The translations under genes were made by a program, and so were the position numbers. This document shows, in pieces, positions 22,018-47,029 of a DNA stretch of 64,000 nt. The stretch's first letter is position 1. Each line of letters begins with the position of its first letter. The stretch covers positions 62,001-126,000 of the forward strand of contig NZ_JYIJ01000018.1 of NCBI RefSeq assembly GCF_001543895.1. The letters are read 5' to 3'. Origin of the DNA: Carbonactinospora thermoautotrophica. Lineage in GTDB: Bacteria; Actinomycetota; Actinomycetes; Streptomycetales; Carbonactinosporaceae. The notes under the pieces were generated by a model. That model saw nothing but the letters and a program-made list of their open reading frames with translations. It had not been told where the DNA came from and ran no database searches.

Positions 22018-22090
22018 GGGGCTGTAGCTCAGCTGGTAGAGCACTTGCTCGGCAGGCAAGGGGTCAGGGGTTCAAGTCCCCTCAGCTCCA
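22018..22090 (+). tRNA. tRNA-Ala (anticodon GGC), AICE integration site
   Basis: A 73-nt cloverleaf that folds without mismatches apart from G-U pairs. The acceptor GGGGCTG/CAGCTCC contains the alanine identity pair G3-U70. The D stem is GCTC/GAGC, the anticodon stem CTTGC/GCAAG and the T stem AGGGG/CCCCT with loop TTCAAGT. The anticodon GGC reads GCC/GCU. Position 33 reads C instead of the near-universal U. The CCA end is not encoded. Bases from the anticodon stem onward (22047-22091) form the left attachment site of the AICE, so the 3' half now in use came with the element. Confidence 0.95.
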
Positions 22091-22091
22091 C
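22047..22091 (+). repeat. attL: 45-bp direct repeat overlapping tRNA-Ala
   Basis: These 45 bp are identical to 30553-30597. They start in the anticodon stem of tRNA-Ala and run one base past its end, the usual attachment geometry of tyrosine-integrase AICEs. Confidence 0.93.
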
Positions 22092-22098
22092 CTCGACG

Positions 22099-22155: not shown

Positions 22156-23295
22156 TCAGTCGCCGAGCGCTTCGGCCACCCTCCGCACGGCCTCACGGCG
22201 ACTCGCGGCACTCGCCCGCTGGTAGACCTCCAGCGTCACCGCGGAACGGCTGTGTCCCAGGATCTCCATCGCGGTACGCGGGTCCACGCCCAGCTCCGCC
22301 AGCAGCGACGCGCACGTATGCCGGGCATCGTGCGGGCGGAACTCGCGCAGGCCCAGCTTGGTCCGAATGCGGGTGAACGAGCGGTTGAAGTTGCGCGGCT
22401 CCACCCAGCCGCCCTTGCGCGTGCTGAGCACGAGGGCGCCCGCGTCCCAGGCATCGCCGGCAGCATCGCACCATTCCGCCTGCCGATCGGCCTGCTCCTT
22501 CAGCGCATCACGGACGACCCCGAGCAGCGGCAGAACGCGACGACCGGCCCGGCTCTTCACCGGCCGCCGCTGAAGCCTGCCGTTCACCCGCTGGAGCTGC
22601 CACCGGACGCGGATCTCGCCAGCATCCCAGTCCACGTCATCCCACCCCAGCCCGAGCGCTTCCCCGCGCCGAAGCCCGAGGTAGAAGATCAACACGAAGG
22701 CCGGGTAGAGCATGTCCGAGCGAGCCTCGGCCAGGAACCGCCGCACCGCCGAGGTAGACCACTCGCCCGGCTCCCGAGGAACCGCCTCAGGCACCTCCAC
22801 CAGGCGCGCGACGTTACGGCTCACCAGCTCCTCACGCATCGCCCGCGTCAGCGCCGAGCTGAGCACCGTACGCATCACCTGGACCTTGCGCGCGCTGTGC
22901 CCGGCGGCAGTCTGGGCGTTGAGAAACGCCTGCACCGTCGCCACCCCGAGCCGGCCAAGCGCGTACTTGCCCAGCCCCGGCTTCAGGTACAGCCGGACGA
23001 TCGTCTCATACAGGTCATACGTCGCCGGACGCTTGGACACCCTGACCACGTGCTCAAGCCAGTAGTCCAGATACTCACCGACCTTCCACGACCTGTCCGG
23101 CACCGGGATGCCCTGGCGTTCGTTGCTCAGGAGCTTCACCAGCTCCTCATGCGCCTCCTCCCACGTCCTGCCGTAGACGTACTTGCGCACCCGCTCACCG
23201 GAGGCGGTCGTCACATAGGCCCGGCCCATGTAGCGGCCATCCTTGCGCCGAGTGATCGAACCCGCGCCGTTCGGGTTCCGCTTGCGCTTGGGCAT
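22156..23295 (-). CDS. int: Site-specific tyrosine integrase of the AICE
   Basis: A 379-aa tyrosine recombinase that integrates the element into tRNA-Ala. A Lys/Arg-rich AP2-like arm-binding region (1-60) is followed by a SAM-like core-binding domain (70-170) and a catalytic domain. Active-site residues are visible: R209 in LGLRRGEAL, H322 and R325 in HDARH, H348 in ILGHS and nucleophile Y358. The start ATG overlaps the xis stop (ATGA), so both are made from one message. It sits next to attL as usual. Confidence 0.95.
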   Translation of the reverse strand: MPKRKRNPNGAGSITRRKDGRYMGRAYVTTASGERVRKYVYGRTWEEAHEELVKLLSNERQGIPVPDRSWKVGEYLDYWLEHVVRVSKRPATYDLYETIVRLYLKPGLGKYALGRLGVATVQAFLNAQTAAGHSARKVQVMRTVLSSALTRAMREELVSRNVARLVEVPEAVPREPGEWSTSAVRRFLAEARSDMLYPAFVLIFYLGLRRGEALGLGWDDVDWDAGEIRVRWQLQRVNGRLQRRPVKSRAGRRVLPLLGVVRDALKEQADRQAEWCDAAGDAWDAGALVLSTRKGGWVEPRNFNRSFTRIRTKLGLREFRPHDARHTCASLLAELGVDPRTAMEILGHSRSAVTLEVYQRASAASRREAVRRVAEALGD

Positions 23296-23471
23296 CAGGC
23301 GGCCTCCTCCAACCGAGCCTGAATGAACGCCGCAACGGCAGCCGCGGGAACGAGGCGACGCCGGCCGATGGTGATCGAGGCCAGCTCGCGGGAGCGGATC
23401 AGGTCGTAGACCTTGGCACGGGACAGCCGCAGCGCGGCCATGACCTCGGGCACGGTGAGCAGTTCAGGCAT
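23295..23471 (-). CDS. xis: Excisionase (MerR-like HTH, 58 aa)
   Basis: A 58-aa winged-helix DNA-binding protein of the AlpA/MerR-like excisionase class: LLTVPEVMAALRLSRAKVYD followed by a basic wing (IGRRRLVP). It should bend attL/attR and steer Int toward excision. ATG at 23471 has AAGGAGG 10 nt upstream. The stop overlaps int and the start overlaps the end of the replication gene by 8 bp, giving the typical repSA-xis-int operon. Confidence 0.9.
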   Translation of the reverse strand: MPELLTVPEVMAALRLSRAKVYDLIRSRELASITIGRRRLVPAAAVAAFIQARLEEAA

Positions 23472-24939
23472 GGTCGTTGCCTCCTTCCGGGGTCGATGGG
23501 TCGGGGTCGGGTTGGGGGTCGCCGGCGAGGGCGGCGGCCAGGATCGACTCCCCGGGGGTGAAGCCCTGGCCGGCGAAGCTCCAGTGCGCGACGACGAGGA
23601 TCGACTCCTCGTCGACGGGCAGGCCGAGGCGTTCCCGGGCCTGCCGTTCGCGGTGCTCGACACGGGCGGCACGCAGCGCGCCGAAGGTGGTGGAGTAGCG
23701 GCGGGCCTTGGTGAGGAAGTGGCCGCGGAAGCCGAGCATGTGCGCCCACCGCTTCAGGTGCAGGGCGGCGTACTCCGGCCGGTCGCCCAGCGCCCAGCAG
23801 GTCGCGATCATCCGCAGGGCGTGGTCGGTGACCCCGGGTGGAAGCCGGTCGGGGTCGATGAACTCCAGGACCCGGGCGGTGATCCCGTCGGAGGTACGTT
23901 CGACGGTCTTCACGCGGTGCAGGTGCCGGGCCTGGATGGGCCGGTCCAGGGTGCCGGCGGCTTCGGCGGCCTTGGTGGCGTACTTGGCGATGTAGCCGGC
24001 GATGCGCTCCGGGGTGAGGTCCCCGGCACCCAGCGCGGTGAGGGGGCGGACGTCGAGCTGGTCCCCGAAGCGCAGCACGCGGACCCCGTACAGCGGGGAG
24101 CGGGGGGAGCGCACCTCGACCCGGGCGGCCGCCGCGCGGATCGCCCGCTCCAGGAGTGCGACGGTGGCCCAGGCGGGTGGGGGAACGATCCGGTCGGGGT
24201 CGTCTGGGTGGCGGCCGTCGAGGCGGATCACGGCGTGGAAGTGGACCAGGCCCCGGCGTTGGAACTCCCCGACCTTGGCGTAGGCGAGTCGACACTGCCG
24301 GGTGAACTGGCGCAGGGTGAGCCCGGCGAGCCGGGCGAGTTCGCGGCGCAGGTAGACGGTGAACCGGTGCCACAGCTTGCCGGCGTGGGCGTTCCACAGC
24401 ACCGCGCCCACGTAGTCGTAGGCGTGCGGGTCCAACGGTTGGCCGATCAGCGGATCGTCCGCGGCGTGCCTGCGCCAGCAGGCCGGCCCCGAGCGGGCGG
24501 GGTGGCAGACCTCGACCCGGCCAGCGTGTTCCACCCGGCGGTGCACCGGCCCGAACGACGGGGCGGTGAACGTGGCGAACACCCGCGGGTGCGCCTGGAC
24601 GGCCTCGGGCACCGTCTTGCCGCCCGCGAGGCCGGCCCAGACCAGGTGGAAGGCGTCGCGCCGGTACACCGCCGAGCAGGCCGGGCAGCGGGTCTCGCGC
24701 CGGTTCCCGCAGCGGATCAACAGGTGCCCGTGCGGCTCTGCGTCGGTGGTGTAGGCGTGCAGCACCTCCCCGGTGGTCTGGTCGACCAGCAGCCGGGAGC
24801 CGGTCAGCCGGACCGGTTCCCGGCAGCCGCCCAGGGCGCGGACCTGGCGCTGCCAGCGGTCGAGGTCGGTGGGGGAGTGGCGGGCCAGGTCGGCCAGGAC
24901 CCGGCCCGCCAGCTCAGCCGCGGCGGCCGGTGCGGTCAC
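23464..24939 (-). CDS. repSA: RepSA-type rolling-circle replication initiator
   Basis: A 491-aa initiator like pSAM2 RepSA, which nicks the double-strand origin of the excised circle. A Cys motif (RCPACSAVYRRD) lies near residue 85. The HUH metal motif is HFH at 233-235 (RRGLVHFHAVIRLDG), and the nicking region is YIAKYATK at 316-323. It starts with GTG at 24939, overlapping the stop of the tiny upstream gene. Loss of function is not evident. Confidence 0.9.
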   Translation of the reverse strand: MTAPAAAAELAGRVLADLARHSPTDLDRWQRQVRALGGCREPVRLTGSRLLVDQTTGEVLHAYTTDAEPHGHLLIRCGNRRETRCPACSAVYRRDAFHLVWAGLAGGKTVPEAVQAHPRVFATFTAPSFGPVHRRVEHAGRVEVCHPARSGPACWRRHAADDPLIGQPLDPHAYDYVGAVLWNAHAGKLWHRFTVYLRRELARLAGLTLRQFTRQCRLAYAKVGEFQRRGLVHFHAVIRLDGRHPDDPDRIVPPPAWATVALLERAIRAAAARVEVRSPRSPLYGVRVLRFGDQLDVRPLTALGAGDLTPERIAGYIAKYATKAAEAAGTLDRPIQARHLHRVKTVERTSDGITARVLEFIDPDRLPPGVTDHALRMIATCWALGDRPEYAALHLKRWAHMLGFRGHFLTKARRYSTTFGALRAARVEHRERQARERLGLPVDEESILVVAHWSFAGQGFTPGESILAAALAGDPQPDPDPSTPEGGNDHA

Positions 24940-26178: not shown

Positions 26179-27639
26179 TTAGGCAGCTTCGGCCGGGGGA
26201 CCCTCGAAGCCAGCGGGCAGCGCGGGCGGGGTGTCGGCGGGGGTCAACGCGCGGCCGGGGGCGTATTCGGCCGCCAGGGCGCGGATGTCCTCGTCGGTGA
26301 GGTAGGCGGCCCGGACCCGGAAGGGTTCGCGGACCCCGTCGAGCTTGACGTAGCCGACACCAGGGAGCGCGTGGGGGATGCGGTCGCAGTACGCGCCCCG
26401 GTCCCGCGCGCCGTCGCCGAGCACCATGTCCACTTGGGTGGGCTCGTCCAGGCGCAGTGCGACCCGGGTGGGGAACAGGTTCCGGTAGGGGATCACGTCC
26501 TTGGACGGGTCCTGCAACGCGCCCACCACCGTGTACCCGACCGCCCGGCCCTTGGTCAGCAAGTGACCCAGCGCGTCATCGATGCGCACCGCGACCCGGC
26601 GGTCCCCCACCAGGGCGGTGAGGCTGGCCAGCTCGTCGATGATGATCAGCCGGAACGGGTCGCCGGGGGTGGGGGTGTGCTGGCGGGTCTTGCCCTTCAA
26701 CCGGGCCGCCCGAGCGTTCATCCCCTCAACGGCCTGTTCCAGCAGGTCCGCGAAGTCGGCGGGGTCGGTGTCGGCGAAGCGGGTGAACAGCGGCTCCCCG
26801 AAGGACAGTTCCATCCCGCCCTTGGGGTCGATCACCCACAGCTCGACCAGCCCGGAGCGAATCGCGGGAGCCAGGCCCCGGATCAGCGACCACAGCACCG
26901 AGCCCTTGCCCGCGCCGGTCGCGCCCGCGATCAGCACATGCGTGCCCAGCAGCCGCAGCCGCCACAGCTCCCCGTCTTCTCGACGCCCGACCGGCACGCC
27001 GCGCAGGTCCACCACGCGCGGGACCGGCAACGGCGGAACCGTCTCCCGCAGCGGGTCCCGGCGTAGCAGGTCCACCCACACCTCACCCGGGCGGGACACC
27101 CGGACCCGGCAGTCCTCGGCCTTGACCGCGTGGGCCAGCGCCTCCGCCGCCTGCTCGAAGTCCGCCGGGGCGAGCCCGGTGGGGATGCCCACCCGCAGCC
27201 GATCCACCGCCCCGGTGCAACGGACCTCCCGCAACGCGGCCAGCTCCTCGGTCCCGTCATCGCGCACGAACAGCCCATGGCGGGACATCAGCCGCCGCCA
27301 CCGGGGGGCGTACACCACCCAGCGCCGCCACACCGACCGCGCCCCGTCCGCGAGGCGGCGGGTGAACCGGTCACGGGCCACCACCAGCAGCACCGCGACC
27401 GGCACCCCCACCCCCACCACGCCGGCCACCGCCAGGCCGGGCAGGCCCCACCGCGCCCACACGGCCAGGCCCACCGTTAGGACCACGGTCTTGGCCGGGT
27501 TGCGGACCGCCCACCACGCCACCCGGCCGGCGAGCCGGAGCGTCTTCCAGGTCAACCACAGCCAGGTAACCGCCAGCAGGACCGGCCAGCCGACCTCGAC
27601 GTCGAGCACCGGGCCGACCCGCACACGCTTCGATGCCAT
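26179..27639 (-). CDS. tra: FtsK/SpoIIIE-type conjugal DNA translocase (TraSA-like)
   Basis: A 486-aa septal DNA translocase that moves double-stranded AICE DNA to the recipient; a single protein does the transfer in these elements. Two N-terminal hydrophobic stretches lie at about 20-90. Walker A is GATGAGKGS (about residue 240) and Walker B is FRLIIIDE. Conserved VELWVIDPKGGMEL and GRAVGYTVVGALQDPSKD also match the family. ATG 27639 follows AGGAAGGA. The fold is complete, so it is likely functional. Confidence 0.92.
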   Translation of the reverse strand: MASKRVRVGPVLDVEVGWPVLLAVTWLWLTWKTLRLAGRVAWWAVRNPAKTVVLTVGLAVWARWGLPGLAVAGVVGVGVPVAVLLVVARDRFTRRLADGARSVWRRWVVYAPRWRRLMSRHGLFVRDDGTEELAALREVRCTGAVDRLRVGIPTGLAPADFEQAAEALAHAVKAEDCRVRVSRPGEVWVDLLRRDPLRETVPPLPVPRVVDLRGVPVGRREDGELWRLRLLGTHVLIAGATGAGKGSVLWSLIRGLAPAIRSGLVELWVIDPKGGMELSFGEPLFTRFADTDPADFADLLEQAVEGMNARAARLKGKTRQHTPTPGDPFRLIIIDELASLTALVGDRRVAVRIDDALGHLLTKGRAVGYTVVGALQDPSKDVIPYRNLFPTRVALRLDEPTQVDMVLGDGARDRGAYCDRIPHALPGVGYVKLDGVREPFRVRAAYLTDEDIRALAAEYAPGRALTPADTPPALPAGFEGPPAEAA

Positions 27640-27730
27640 ACTGAAAGTCCTTCCTAGGAGATCGCGCACCCTGGGGAGGGATCAGAGGGGCAGCCGATGG
27701 CGGTCGGACTGCCCCTCACCCGTTGCCCGG

Positions 27731-28693: not shown

Positions 28694-28755
28694 ACCTCTA
28701 GAGGTTTCTAGTGAAGCACGAACCTCTAGAGGTTCGCAAGTAACCTCTAGAGGTT
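28694..28755. promoter_or_regulatory. Triple operator (ACCTCTAGAGGT palindromes) in front of the transfer operon
   Basis: Three copies of the same palindrome: ACCTCTAGAGGT at 28694-28705, and AACCTCTAGAGGTT at 28721-28734 and 28742-28755. The last two are centred 21 bp apart (two helical turns); the first is 28 bp away. They lie between the 3' end of gntR and the start of the 116-aa gene, exactly where the tra-operon promoter should be. A fourth copy precedes gntR itself, so the binding protein is very probably the AICE GntR repressor. Confidence 0.85.
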
Positions 28756-28814: not shown

Positions 28815-29576
28815 TCAGCTATCGAACTCGTAGCGAAGGACGTACGCCCATGCGTCGAGCGTCATCTCGTTGACCTCGACGGCGCGGCCATCCTCCGTGT
28901 ACGCGGTCCGCACGATCACTACGACCGGCGTCCCAGGATGGAGCCGCAAACGTTCGGCTTCCTCCGGTCGAGGCATGCGCGCCCGGATGTCCTCACGGAA
29001 ATGCTTCGGCTCGTGACCGAGATCCTTGAGGCGTGCATAGATGCCGCCTTCCCCGGTGTCGACTTCCATAATCCGGGAGCCAGCCACGAGATCAGCCGGC
29101 AGGTAAGACGTCGCGAGCATCACCGGCTTGTCCTCAACCACGTATCGGCGCGACCGCACGCATACGCGCGCAGGAGGGTCAAGCTCCAGGATCCTGGCAA
29201 CCCAGGTCGGGGCGTCTTCGACGGTGACAGTGACGTCCTCGGTCTTCGGACGACCGTCGAGGTCGATCTCCCAGATCGAGCGGCCGGACCCCCACTGCCG
29301 GGCGGACAACCGCTTGATGCCGTCGCGGAGCAGCGGCCTGAACTCGCGCACGAAGGTGCCCCCGCGTGCCCCCTGCTTCGCGAACACCAAGCCTTCAGCC
29401 TTCAGGACGGCCAGCGCCTTACGGGCAGTCTCGCGTGCCACGTTGTACTTGGCCATCAACTCGTCTTCGCCCGGAACCCGAGCACCGGGGCCTAGCTCGC
29501 CAGAGTCGATAGCCGCCCGCAACTCAGCCGCGATCCGCTCGTAGATCGCCGGATCGTTCCTATGCGTAGCAGCCAT
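28815..29576 (-). CDS. GntR/HutC-type transcriptional repressor (KorSA-like)
   Basis: A 253-aa GntR-family regulator with an N-terminal winged helix (YERIAAELRAAIDSGELGPG, then ARETARKALAVLKAEGL) and a C-terminal UTRA effector domain. In pSAM2 the equivalent KorSA represses the element's activation and transfer genes. ATG 29576 follows GGGAGG. An operator copy overlaps its leader (29588-29599), indicating autorepression, and three copies face the transfer operon. The UTRA domain implies a small-molecule inducer, not identified. Confidence 0.88.
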   Translation of the reverse strand: MAATHRNDPAIYERIAAELRAAIDSGELGPGARVPGEDELMAKYNVARETARKALAVLKAEGLVFAKQGARGGTFVREFRPLLRDGIKRLSARQWGSGRSIWEIDLDGRPKTEDVTVTVEDAPTWVARILELDPPARVCVRSRRYVVEDKPVMLATSYLPADLVAGSRIMEVDTGEGGIYARLKDLGHEPKHFREDIRARMPRPEEAERLRLHPGTPVVVIVRTAYTEDGRAVEVNEMTLDAWAYVLRYEFDS

Positions 29577-29587
29577 CAGACCTCCCA

Positions 29588-29599
29588 AACCTCTAGAGG
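29588..29599. promoter_or_regulatory. Autoregulatory operator of the GntR repressor
   Basis: AACCTCTAGAGG, the fourth copy of the element's palindrome (one arm truncated by two bases), lies about 12 nt upstream of the repressor start, immediately before its ribosome site. Confidence 0.75.
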
Positions 29600-30227
29600 C
29601 CCACAGTACCCGGTTGCGGCCACGAGAAACACACTCGGAGGAGCTGCACGCCAGATGCACCAGGGGAGCTGTTCAAACTTTCTCTACGGGATCAAGCCGG
29701 CCCGCAAGCGGGCCGGAGGCGGGCGGCCGGGGCGCGCTGTGCGCCCGGCCCGCGCCGCTCGCGCCGGGCGTGCGGCCTGCCCGGCCGGTCCCGGCGCGGC
29801 GTCGCGGACCGGCCCGGCCGCCCGCCACACAGACAGCAGGCCGGTTGCCCGCCGCACGAACGGTGACCGTCGCCGCCCACCCGACAGGCGATCTTCGGGG
29901 CCGTCGCCTGCGCGTCAAGGCCAAGCCGCTCGAGCAACGCTCGAGCGGTCGGCCTCGCGGCCGAGCCTTGACGCTCCGGCTCTGGCCCTACGATGCGGCA
30001 CCTGTCGGGTGGGCGGCTCAGAGTGGCTACGGCTCGCGTCCGATTTGCGAAGCTTGTTCTATCGGGTGTGCGGGTACGGCGGCCCTGTTGTCGAGGCCGA
30101 GCACAACCGGGCAGACTGCCCCGTGTGCAGCGACACGCCGACCCCTGATGCACGACCGGAGGTTCACTGCACATCCGGGCACGACCTGGCCCGGTGGACA
30201 CGTCCCCATCTGCGGCTTTACCCTCGG
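29600..30227. other. Non-coding, strongly structured AICE end with a three-way-junction element
   Basis: No convincing gene lies in this 630-bp stretch. It contains dense inverted repeats. CCGGCCCGC/GCGGGCCGG forms a hairpin at 29697-29716. An exact 17-bp inverted repeat (29872-29888 with 30001-30017) encloses CAGGCGA/TCGCCTG (29885-29910) and a perfect three-way junction at 29912-29974. The junction has an outer 10-bp stem (29912-29921/29965-29974), a 10-bp hairpin (29926-29948) and a 6-bp hairpin with TCGC loop (29949-29964), abutting without gaps on one side. It may be a replication or transfer origin of the AICE or a structured RNA. Confidence 0.75.
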
Positions 30228-30388
30228 GTCCACAACCGCCCGACAGGGCATAGAAACCTGTGGACTTGGCCGACTTGGGGCGCTTGTGGGAGTCCACAAC
30301 CGCCCGACAGGGCATAGAAACGCACGGATCCGCTCGCGGTCCATCGTGGTGGTGCCCCGTCCACAACCGCCCGACAGGGCATAGAGGG
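30228..30388 (+). CRISPR. CRISPR mini-array: 3 repeats, 2 spacers, no cas genes
   Basis: A 30-bp repeat starting GTCCACAACCGCCCGACAGG and ending GCATAGAAAC occurs at 30228-30257 and 30292-30321 (identical) and at 30359-30388 (last four bases AGGG instead of AAAC). Spacers are 34 bp (30258-30291) and 37 bp (30322-30358) and unrelated to each other. The repeat has a GCCC/GGGC mini-stem and an 8-nt ATAGAAAC end like the 5' handle of type I/III crRNAs. This, with the degenerate last repeat, places the leader on the left and transcription on the plus strand. No cas gene lies in the window. Confidence 0.75.
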
Positions 30389-30552: not shown

Positions 30553-30597
30553 GCTCGGCAGGCAAGGGGTCAGGGGTTCAAGTCCCCTCAGCTCCAC
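30553..30597 (+). repeat. attR: second copy of the 45-bp tRNA-Ala 3' segment
   Basis: Identical to 22047-22091. It contains only the 3' part of tRNA-Ala (anticodon loop to acceptor end) and lacks the 5' half, so it is not a tRNA gene. It marks the right end of the AICE. Confidence 0.93.
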
Positions 30598-30606
30598 AAG
30601 CTCGGT

Positions 30607-32293: not shown

Positions 32294-33030
32294 GTTCATT
32301 CCCGTGAACGAGCGAAGTAACCGGGACTGCTTTCCCCTATGGACCGTCGGGATGAATGCGAGCGCGGCCGCGCACGGCGGGATTCTTCTGGGTGAGGCCG
32401 GCGCAGACGCGTCATCCGCCCGCGGCCAGCAGAACCCTGCCGGTGGTCCCCTGACCGGGGCCCGGCTGGTTTTCCGCTGTTCTCGGGCCACGTGTCTGAT
32501 GCGGGACTGAGCGGCGGGGGCTGATCGTTGACAGCTCGTTCCCAGGTCATGCCCGACGCCTTCGACCCCGGATCCTTGGTGATCAAGGGCCGTGCCGTGG
32601 AAGGCGATCACACCTGTGGTTGGAGATCCCGAGGTGCCCGGCCCGTCCTGGGCTGACGGCGGCCGAGACGTGCCGCCGGATCTCAGCCGGGATGTTCTCC
32701 GGCACCGGCGCCGGCCGTGCCCAGGGCCGGGAGGGGTTGGCGCCGCGCTTCCCCGGTCGGGTTCGCCCCGGACACCGGGCGGCAGGCCAGCAAGACCGTC
32801 CCGCCGCGCGCACCCGGTGAGCAGCAGCGAGGTGACCCGCTGCCGCGATTGGCGGATCACCGTCGGCAGGCAGCCTGGCGGGCACGGCCCTGCACGTCCG
32901 AACGTCGGCATCGTCCGCGTCTACTCGGCCACGAACTGCCATGCGAACTCCTGCTCAGACCCAAGGGCACCCACCACAGCAACGGCGTGCCCCGCGGACG
33001 CCCGAAGACGAAGAGTCACTGATGTCCTGC
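32294..33030. other. Intergenic stretch of about 740 bp, no supported gene
   Basis: Several overlapping open frames exist on both strands (for example 32583-32942 minus, 32592-33047 plus). None has a ribosome site, recognisable motif or plausible protein composition. It may be decayed sequence between the secreted-protein gene and the insertion sequence. Confidence 0.45.
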
Positions 33031-33922
33031 TAAAGGCTGTCACGTAACTGGTCTTCTGGGTTGCGTGCGATGCTGGCCGGCGCCTGCTCTGATCAACCAG
33101 TGAGGGCGAGGTTGTGCAGGAAGGCGATGCCGGCGGCGGTGTCGCGCAGGGTATGGGCCTTGCGCCGGTAATCGCGCAGGATCTTCCAACACTTCATCCT
33201 CGCCAGGGTGTGCTCGATCCGAGCCCGGACGCTGCGATGGACCGCGTTGAGCTCCTCCTGCCACTCCGGCAGGGGCGTGCCGTCCCGGGGCCTACGGTAG
33301 GGGATGATCACGCCCGGGTTGCCCTGATAGCCCCCGTCGGCCATGACAGGCCTGCCAGCCAGGACCTGGTCAATGCCGGACTCGCGGTAGGCCCGGCAGT
33401 CGTTGCGGTTGCCCGGCTGGGGGTCCCCGACGGCGACGACCAGGCGGGTGTCGGCGTCGATCGCGACCTGGAGGTTGGTCGAGTACCGGTAGTTCTTGCT
33501 GCGCTCCGCCAGGCGGCGATCCCGGGTGGGCACCAGGGTGCCGTCCACGATGCACACCTGATCGACGCTGCGGCGCCGGGCCGGGGCCAGGGCCAGCAGC
33601 GGCCCCACCGTCTCCACGACCCGGTGCGCCGCGGCATGGGAGATCCCGAACAGCGGGCCGACCTGCCGCAACGTCAGGTTCGTGCGCCAGTACACCGCGA
33701 CCAGCAACACCCGATCCGCCAGACACAATCGCCACGGCCGGCAGGCGCGACCGTCGGCGATCCTGTCCCCGCCCCGCTCGGCCACGGTACGCACCAGCTT
33801 GCGGAACTGCCGGGGTGTCAACCCGGTGAACGGAGTGATCCACCCCGCCTGAGCAGCAGAGATCACCTGACCCATACCCCGACCAACGGCCGACACCGCC
33901 CCGAGTTACGAGACAACCTTTA
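33031..33922 (-). mobile_element. IS5-family insertion sequence with 19-bp terminal inverted repeats
   Basis: An 892-bp element. The left end, TAAAGGCTGTCACGTAACT, matches the right end read from the other strand, TAAAGGTTGTCTCGTAACT, at 17 of 19 positions. One transposase ORF fills it. No exact target duplication is evident, so the flanks may have diverged or recombined. It sits between secreted paralogues 2 and 3. Confidence 0.85.
33093..33896 (-). CDS. IS5-family DDE transposase (DDE_Tnp_4 type)
   Basis: A 267-aa transposase with an N-terminal HTH region (LTLRQVGPLFGISHAAAHRV) and a DDE core. The first Asp is in CIVDGTLVPT, the second in VMADGGYQGN and the Glu in RARIEHTLARMKCW. KNYRYSTNLQVAIDADTRLV and the other motifs match the IS427/ISL2-like branch of IS5. 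The frame is intact from GTG 33896 (ATG 33875 possible), so the element may be active. Confidence 0.92.
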   Translation of the reverse strand: MSAVGRGMGQVISAAQAGWITPFTGLTPRQFRKLVRTVAERGGDRIADGRACRPWRLCLADRVLLVAVYWRTNLTLRQVGPLFGISHAAAHRVVETVGPLLALAPARRRSVDQVCIVDGTLVPTRDRRLAERSKNYRYSTNLQVAIDADTRLVVAVGDPQPGNRNDCRAYRESGIDQVLAGRPVMADGGYQGNPGVIIPYRRPRDGTPLPEWQEELNAVHRSVRARIEHTLARMKCWKILRDYRRKAHTLRDTAAGIAFLHNLALTG

Positions 33923-46977: not shown

Positions 46978-47029
46978 GCGTCGAGTGTGCGTGTCGTCCC
47001 ACGCGTGGGACGACACGCACACTCGACGC
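46978..47029. repeat. 52-bp perfect palindrome
   Basis: GCGTCGAGTGTGCGTGTCGT begins a 26-base arm whose exact reverse complement follows directly, with no loop and no mismatch. It lies in the decayed region between a frameshifted membrane protein gene and other broken genes. It can form a cruciform or a very stable RNA hairpin, and also makes near-identical ORFs on both strands. Confidence 0.9.

Follow-up and report, generated by a model that had tools for sequence, protein, structure and literature searches.

Single-strand origins (ssos) are folded, non-coding, strand-specific signals present on elements with single-stranded intermediates, and the classic and best-known example in Streptomyces is sti of plasmid pIJ101. 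A single-stranded intermediate is common to elements that carry RepSA together with an FtsK-like protein and to plasmids that carry a relaxase together with a VirD4-like protein. To our knowledge, the conversion of these single strands to duplex has been little characterized in AICEs and in mobilizable actinomycete plasmids. An orientation-specific sso is already known from an ICE, namely sso1 of ICEBs1 (PMC4595007). Actinobacteria go unmentioned in the text of Samuel et al. (2024) on Frpo/ssi single-stranded DNA promoters (PMC11541004), and a word search of an AICE survey that covers pSAM2-type elements (PMC3218068) returned no structured element of the layout described here. The covariance models of Rfam 15 do not match the element, and in the open-access literature no paper was found that reports its core in a pertinent context or presents such an actinobacterial family. 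The family of structured DNA reported here is apparently undescribed so far. The original prediction that no AICE element with this layout had been described therefore stands with respect to Rfam and published papers, although the element is not peculiar to the AICE in which it was noticed.

The window, which is the whole stretch of 64,000 nucleotides analysed from the Carbonactinospora thermoautotrophica genome, contains an AICE bounded by a tRNA-Ala gene (22018-22092). The 3′ part of this gene forms the att core (22047..22092, plus strand), and a copy of it on the same strand at 30553..30598 forms the opposite att end. The AICE integrase (22156..23295; Pfam PF00589), the RepSA rolling-circle initiator (23464..24939; PF20199, E 6e-160), the FtsK/SpoIIIE-like transfer protein (26179..27669; PF01580), and a KorSA-like GntR/UTRA regulator (28815..29660) are all encoded on the minus strand, while the structured element lies on the plus strand, opposite to RepSA. 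The features by which an AICE is recognized, namely an integrase, RepSA, an FtsK-like Tra protein, and a tRNA att duplicate, are all present. The palindrome AACCTCTAGAGGTT occurs twice, 21 bp apart, at 28721-28755, with a partial copy around 29586 beside the start of the GntR gene; these palindromes are likely operators of the KorSA-like regulator.

The structured element spans 29872..30017 on the plus strand, which is the orientation of the family consensus. Its outer stem is a 17-bp inverted repeat whose arms (29872..29888 and 30001..30017) are 100% complementary. Nested inside is the core stem, formed by GCGTCAAGGC (29912..29921) and GCCTTGACGC (29965..29974), which take the forms gTCAAGG and CCTTGAc in the family. 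The core stem encloses a CAAG linker (29922-29925), a 10-bp hairpin with an AAC loop (hairpin 1, 29926..29948), and a 6-bp hairpin, TCGGCC-TCGC-GGCCGA (hairpin 2, 29949..29964), with zero spare bases. The nested layout of arms, stem, linker, and two abutting hairpins had been proposed from the letters of the DNA and proved exact in every coordinate, as did the absence of a gene: the overlapping open reading frames have no Pfam match and the segment is intergenic. In the right arm, GGCACCTGTCGGG (29997-30009) is similar to GGCA-n-YTATCGGG, a motif that follows the element on its 3′ side in plasmid members of the family. With DNA parameters, the plus strand folds at -66 kcal/mol (z -8.35 relative to dinucleotide shuffles). 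With RNA parameters, the values are -110.6 (z -8.6) for the plus strand and -116.6 (z -9.2) for the minus strand, and none of 200 shuffles folds as well. Twenty local shuffles of the whole window contain zero perfect inverted repeats of at least 17 bp within 150 bp, whereas the real window contains two, the 17-bp repeat of the element and a 52-bp palindrome at 46978. The latter sequence belongs to a set of perfect 50-54-bp palindromes (CGTCGAGTGTGCGTGTCGTC.../reverse complement) that are dispersed in the genome (window 46978-47029; L066 1435-1488; L069 1901-1950).

A search of the C. thermoautotrophica genome for sister copies of the window element (copy A) revealed two more full copies, B (C17:720799-720938, in L014) and C (C15:4006-4137, in L015), and several partial ones, of which D, E, and F retain the 3′ half only. 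Identity to copy A is 88% for B and 82% for C, and the fold is kept in all three. In the outer stem of copy C, a C-G pair is replaced by T-A with both sides exchanged, a compensatory change. Comparison of the three copies further shows that hairpins 1 and 2 are shortened on both sides, hairpin 1 being longest in the window. Uncompensated changes are present too: the outer left arm is incomplete in copy B, and the core stem of copy C contains a mismatch.

From the window segment, relatives in other genomes were reached by a covariance model only; blastn of the window segment against 98 relatives gave no convincing match, and none in plasmids. A covariance model built from copies A, B, and C (R1) was run over 247 Actinomycetes genomes. 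Full-length matches were obtained in four genomes of one genus in another family and in one genome of a further family, with E-values of 1e-6 to 8e-4 per genome, which are rough for such custom models. All four members from one genus belong to AICEs that carry RepSA and/or FtsK; they lie close to a tRNA and are placed between a 99-aa open reading frame or a gap and the integrase. The neighbors of the fifth match include genes for FtsK and for an Abi-like protein. One R1 match, in genome G441, has a good score with model R2, yet lies among chromosomal genes. The core GTCAAGGGC...TCGGCCTACGGCCGACCCTTGAC is visible by eye in the R1 matches, and in three of the four AICE members GTCAAGG/CCTTGAC is changed to GTCCAGG/CCTGGAC on both sides of the stem. 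An exact pattern of the conserved 3′ half has no match in viral contigs; its single match in genome contigs falls in a Frankia coding region and was dismissed as chance. BLAST with the core of the AICE members retrieved 38 plasmid records, with nearly all matches outside annotated genes, and zero phage matches. The plasmid hosts are Micromonospora, Cutibacterium, Pseudonocardia, Mycobacterium, several Micrococcales, and Acidiphilium (three plasmids), and the core is also present on a 1,579-bp plasmid that carries one annotated gene.

Membership of the window copy was assessed independently with model R3, which was trained on 27 members from other genomes with the host genome excluded. In 236 kb, R3 recovers copy B (E 8.2e-9), the window copy at 29893..29993 on the plus strand (E 8.6e-5), and copy C (1e-4), each at the expected coordinates, although the E-values are approximate. 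Model R2 places the family in 98 of 395 Actinomycetes genomes and in 32 of 138 genera. The covariance-model search that the original prediction had proposed thus yields homologous segments with compensatory changes.

The structure of the family is under selection. In an alignment of 30 members, 28 of 36 pairs are changed on both sides, the covariation score is 0.391 (0.132 for shuffled alignments, with 0/500 reaching the real value; ≤0.146 in slid controls), and 79.1% of the cells pair, as opposed to 61.4% after shuffling. The lower stem is nearly free to vary in sequence while its complementarity is largely kept; in the core stem and in hairpin 1 the sequence itself is conserved, and double changes are rare. 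On the consensus strand, 3-nt loops are often GCTNCGC. A loosely defined 3′ motif, GGCA-n-YTA-GG, is present in 17 of 50 members (6.4 expected), mostly 23-26 nt past TTGAC. The window copy fits the family layout, with a gTCAAGG/CCTTGAc core stem around the hairpins and a complementary lower stem. Before hairpin 1, where most members have the conserved segment GGGCGCTnCGCG, copies A, B, and C carry CAAG(C), which is shorter; the segment is typical, not universal, and is absent from G487 as well. The window copy is a member of a diverged sub-group without the conserved GGGCGCT segment.

The genomic context links the family to AICEs with RepSA and to plasmids with relaxases. In a sample of 31 element loci examined over 14-18 kb, RepSA is present within about 8 kb at 16; among control loci, taken from a comparable group of genomes, the count is 1 of 20. 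Of the 16 loci, 15 have the element and RepSA on opposite strands, the exception being a 50-aa RepSA fragment. Addition of the window, G583, G542 (whose rep gene was placed by synteny with G428), G428, and the Rep plasmid pPA43082 brings the count opposite to RepSA/Rep to 20 of 21, a figure that is not to be read as a probability because members of the same genus are non-independent. In relaxase plasmids, the element is opposite to the relaxase/mobC genes in 10 of 10 cases, 0.2-1.5 kb from mobC, and in seven of them it lies past a small open reading frame on its own strand. On a linear plasmid of Streptomyces sp. NBC_00663 (L116 4001-4055), an element is located about 0.6 kb from the plasmid end. 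Some copies occupy chromosomal intergenic spots without recognized mobile genes; among those in chromosomal spacers, L163, L164, L166, and L170 contain convergent inverted pairs 0.3-1.4 kb apart, and genome G017 harbors a unit of roughly 775 bp at three places (83-85% identical). Such copies could be remnants or a transposable derivative.

On balance, the window segment is probably the single-strand origin of the AICE (an sso or an ssi-type priming site). The hosts of this module differ in their proteins and have a single-stranded intermediate in common, which favors this function. The intermediate is indicated by RepSA in the window AICE and by relaxases in the ten mobilizable plasmids. As is also expected of an sso, the element keeps one orientation in both sets with respect to the genes for replication or transfer. 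Rolling-circle replication would leave the AICE single-stranded, and the strand would fold into an outer stem, the gTCAAGG/CCTTGAc core stem, and a set of two or three hairpins. This fold would be recognized by a host enzyme, either RNA polymerase or a primase, which would make the primer of the complementary strand. All three parts of this mechanism are inferred by us: a single-stranded active form, the priming of synthesis, and the identity of the enzyme. Several points are in tension with the single-strand origin. Should replication proceed in the direction of repSA transcription, AICEs would have the reverse complement of the element on their displaced strand and mobilizable plasmids would have the consensus. 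Also on this side of the balance are the chromosomal copies away from recognized mobile genes, the lack of a match in pIJ101, the diverged state of the window copy, and the fact that the element tracks CRISPR leaders within the host genome. A broader proposal, which we put forward tentatively, is that one module common to FtsK-type rolling-circle AICEs and relaxase plasmids may serve as a general actinomycete signal for single-strand initiation, read by a shared host factor, and may in this lineage also have become joined to the leaders of CRISPR mini-arrays at AICE ends.

The nearest rival is a single-stranded DNA promoter of the Frpo type, in which RNA polymerase would use -35 and -10 boxes in the stem to express nearby genes and would prime once the DNA is single-stranded. 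In its favor, TTGAC is almost invariant on the 3′ strand of the core stem, plasmid members lie near mob genes, the window has TTGACG - 15 nt - TACGAT in its 3′ arm (29968..29994, plus strand), and Frpo elements are known from leading regions (PMC11541004). The hexamer pair of the window is not family-wide, however, and was not picked up by a sigma-70 scan with 16-18 spacing. A TANNNT placed 15-19 nt after TTGAC is restricted to 5 of 50 members, including the three sister copies of the host genome (shuffled mean 0.75), and in several AICE members TTGAC has become TGGAC with a matching change in the partner strand, so that pairing seems to matter more than the box. Such a promoter is considered unlikely. 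The fixed orientation speaks against a dispersed, selfish palindrome of the MITE or REP kind that is carried along by mobile elements, as do the recurrent proximity to mobC or integrase genes and the long-term covariation across families. This explanation is improbable, even with multiple copies in some Streptomyces-like genomes, chromosomal intergenic sites, and convergent inverted pairs in its favor. The same core is found on elements with RepSA and FtsK and on plasmids with unrelated relaxases, hence none of these proteins can be its sole ligand, and the distance to mobC is variable. A double-strand origin, oriT, or clt, as a nicking target of RepSA or of a relaxase or as a binding site of the FtsK-like Tra, would explain the mob genes near the plasmid copies and the int or rep genes near the AICE copies, but is decidedly improbable. 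Among the functions offered in the original prediction, the single-strand origin thus has the best support, from RepSA AICEs, relaxase plasmids, and fixed orientation, and the double-strand origin or clt fits less well.

Two further explanations involve RNA. The strong RNA fold and the covariation would suit a trans-acting non-coding RNA gene with three hairpins; yet no general promoter or terminator was found at the ends, the lower stem is complementary while near-free in sequence, and Rfam offers no match, which leaves the chance of such a gene very small indeed. Slightly more credible, though still highly improbable, is that the element forms the upstream part of a CRISPR leader, as a promoter or regulatory RNA of mini-arrays on mobile elements of the host genome. 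This idea initially came from the host-genome copies, since the full copies A, B, and C and the partial copies D, E, and F are all followed, about 200-320 bp downstream, by CRISPR repeats that run the same way. It was demoted by a survey of 61 element loci, in which a CRISPR array within 1.5 kb is present at host-genome loci only, making the association local; moreover, the cas1/cas2-adjacent arrays on C9 have the leader core and lack the element. The structured RNA tied to the CRISPR array that had been suggested is, as a general function, unsupported by the same survey. The local association is probably caused by arrays and elements that travel on the same AICE ends, and the mini-array next to the window element (three repeats, 30228..30388, plus strand) is probably outside the function of the element.

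Between 30228 and 30445 in the window, three repeats (the last decayed to GAGGG) are followed by a single type I-E-like repeat before the att end, and at C19:906617 (L033) five such repeats, with the same tail and AICE end, occur without a leader. No full-length match to a CRISPR spacer was detected in the host-genome loci examined. Islands between a tRNA gene and a copy of its 3′ end (tRNA-Val, L015 3718-5712; tRNA-Pro, L016 5010-10798) contain the leader and one or two CRISPR repeats, and in the Val island there is little besides the element, the leader, the repeats, and an IS that has inserted. A DDE transposase element is 99.9% identical between window 33030-33922 and L015 4470-5362 and has therefore moved recently. 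Relatives of the same order (L038-L062; G239, G293, and G388) have degenerate arrays whose repeats agree with those of the host genome in the 3′ end, GGGCATAGAAAC, and differ from them at the 5′ end; no RepSA was found near them. An apparent array beside the element in L159 is a 52-bp tandem repeat.

The presence of the family in about a quarter of the sampled Actinomycetes genomes makes the question of single-strand conversion directly testable. It also provides a sequence handle for the annotation of origins, transfer regions, and element remnants, and the family is present on pTZC1, a resistance plasmid of Cutibacterium acnes.

In gene content, the host element resembles pSAM2-type AICEs, with an integrase, RepSA, an FtsK-like Tra, a GntR/UTRA regulator, and tRNA att sites. 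Like the Frpo/ssi single-stranded DNA promoters (PMC11541004), the family consists of folded DNA near plasmid mob genes with TTGAC in a stem; unlike them, it has no general -10 box and is also found on AICEs without a relaxase. Plasmid pIJ101 (L101) has no R2 or R3 match, and hence no homology to sti was detected. The closest likeness is to the ssoA, ssoU, and ssoT types, sso1 of ICEBs1, and sti of pIJ101, all of which are non-coding, folded, fixed in orientation, and associated with single-stranded intermediates. Distinctive features of the family are its shared gTCAAGG...CCTTGAc core and its variable but complementary lower stem. A further difference is that it occurs on RepSA AICEs and relaxase plasmids alike, where its predicted role is that of an sso.
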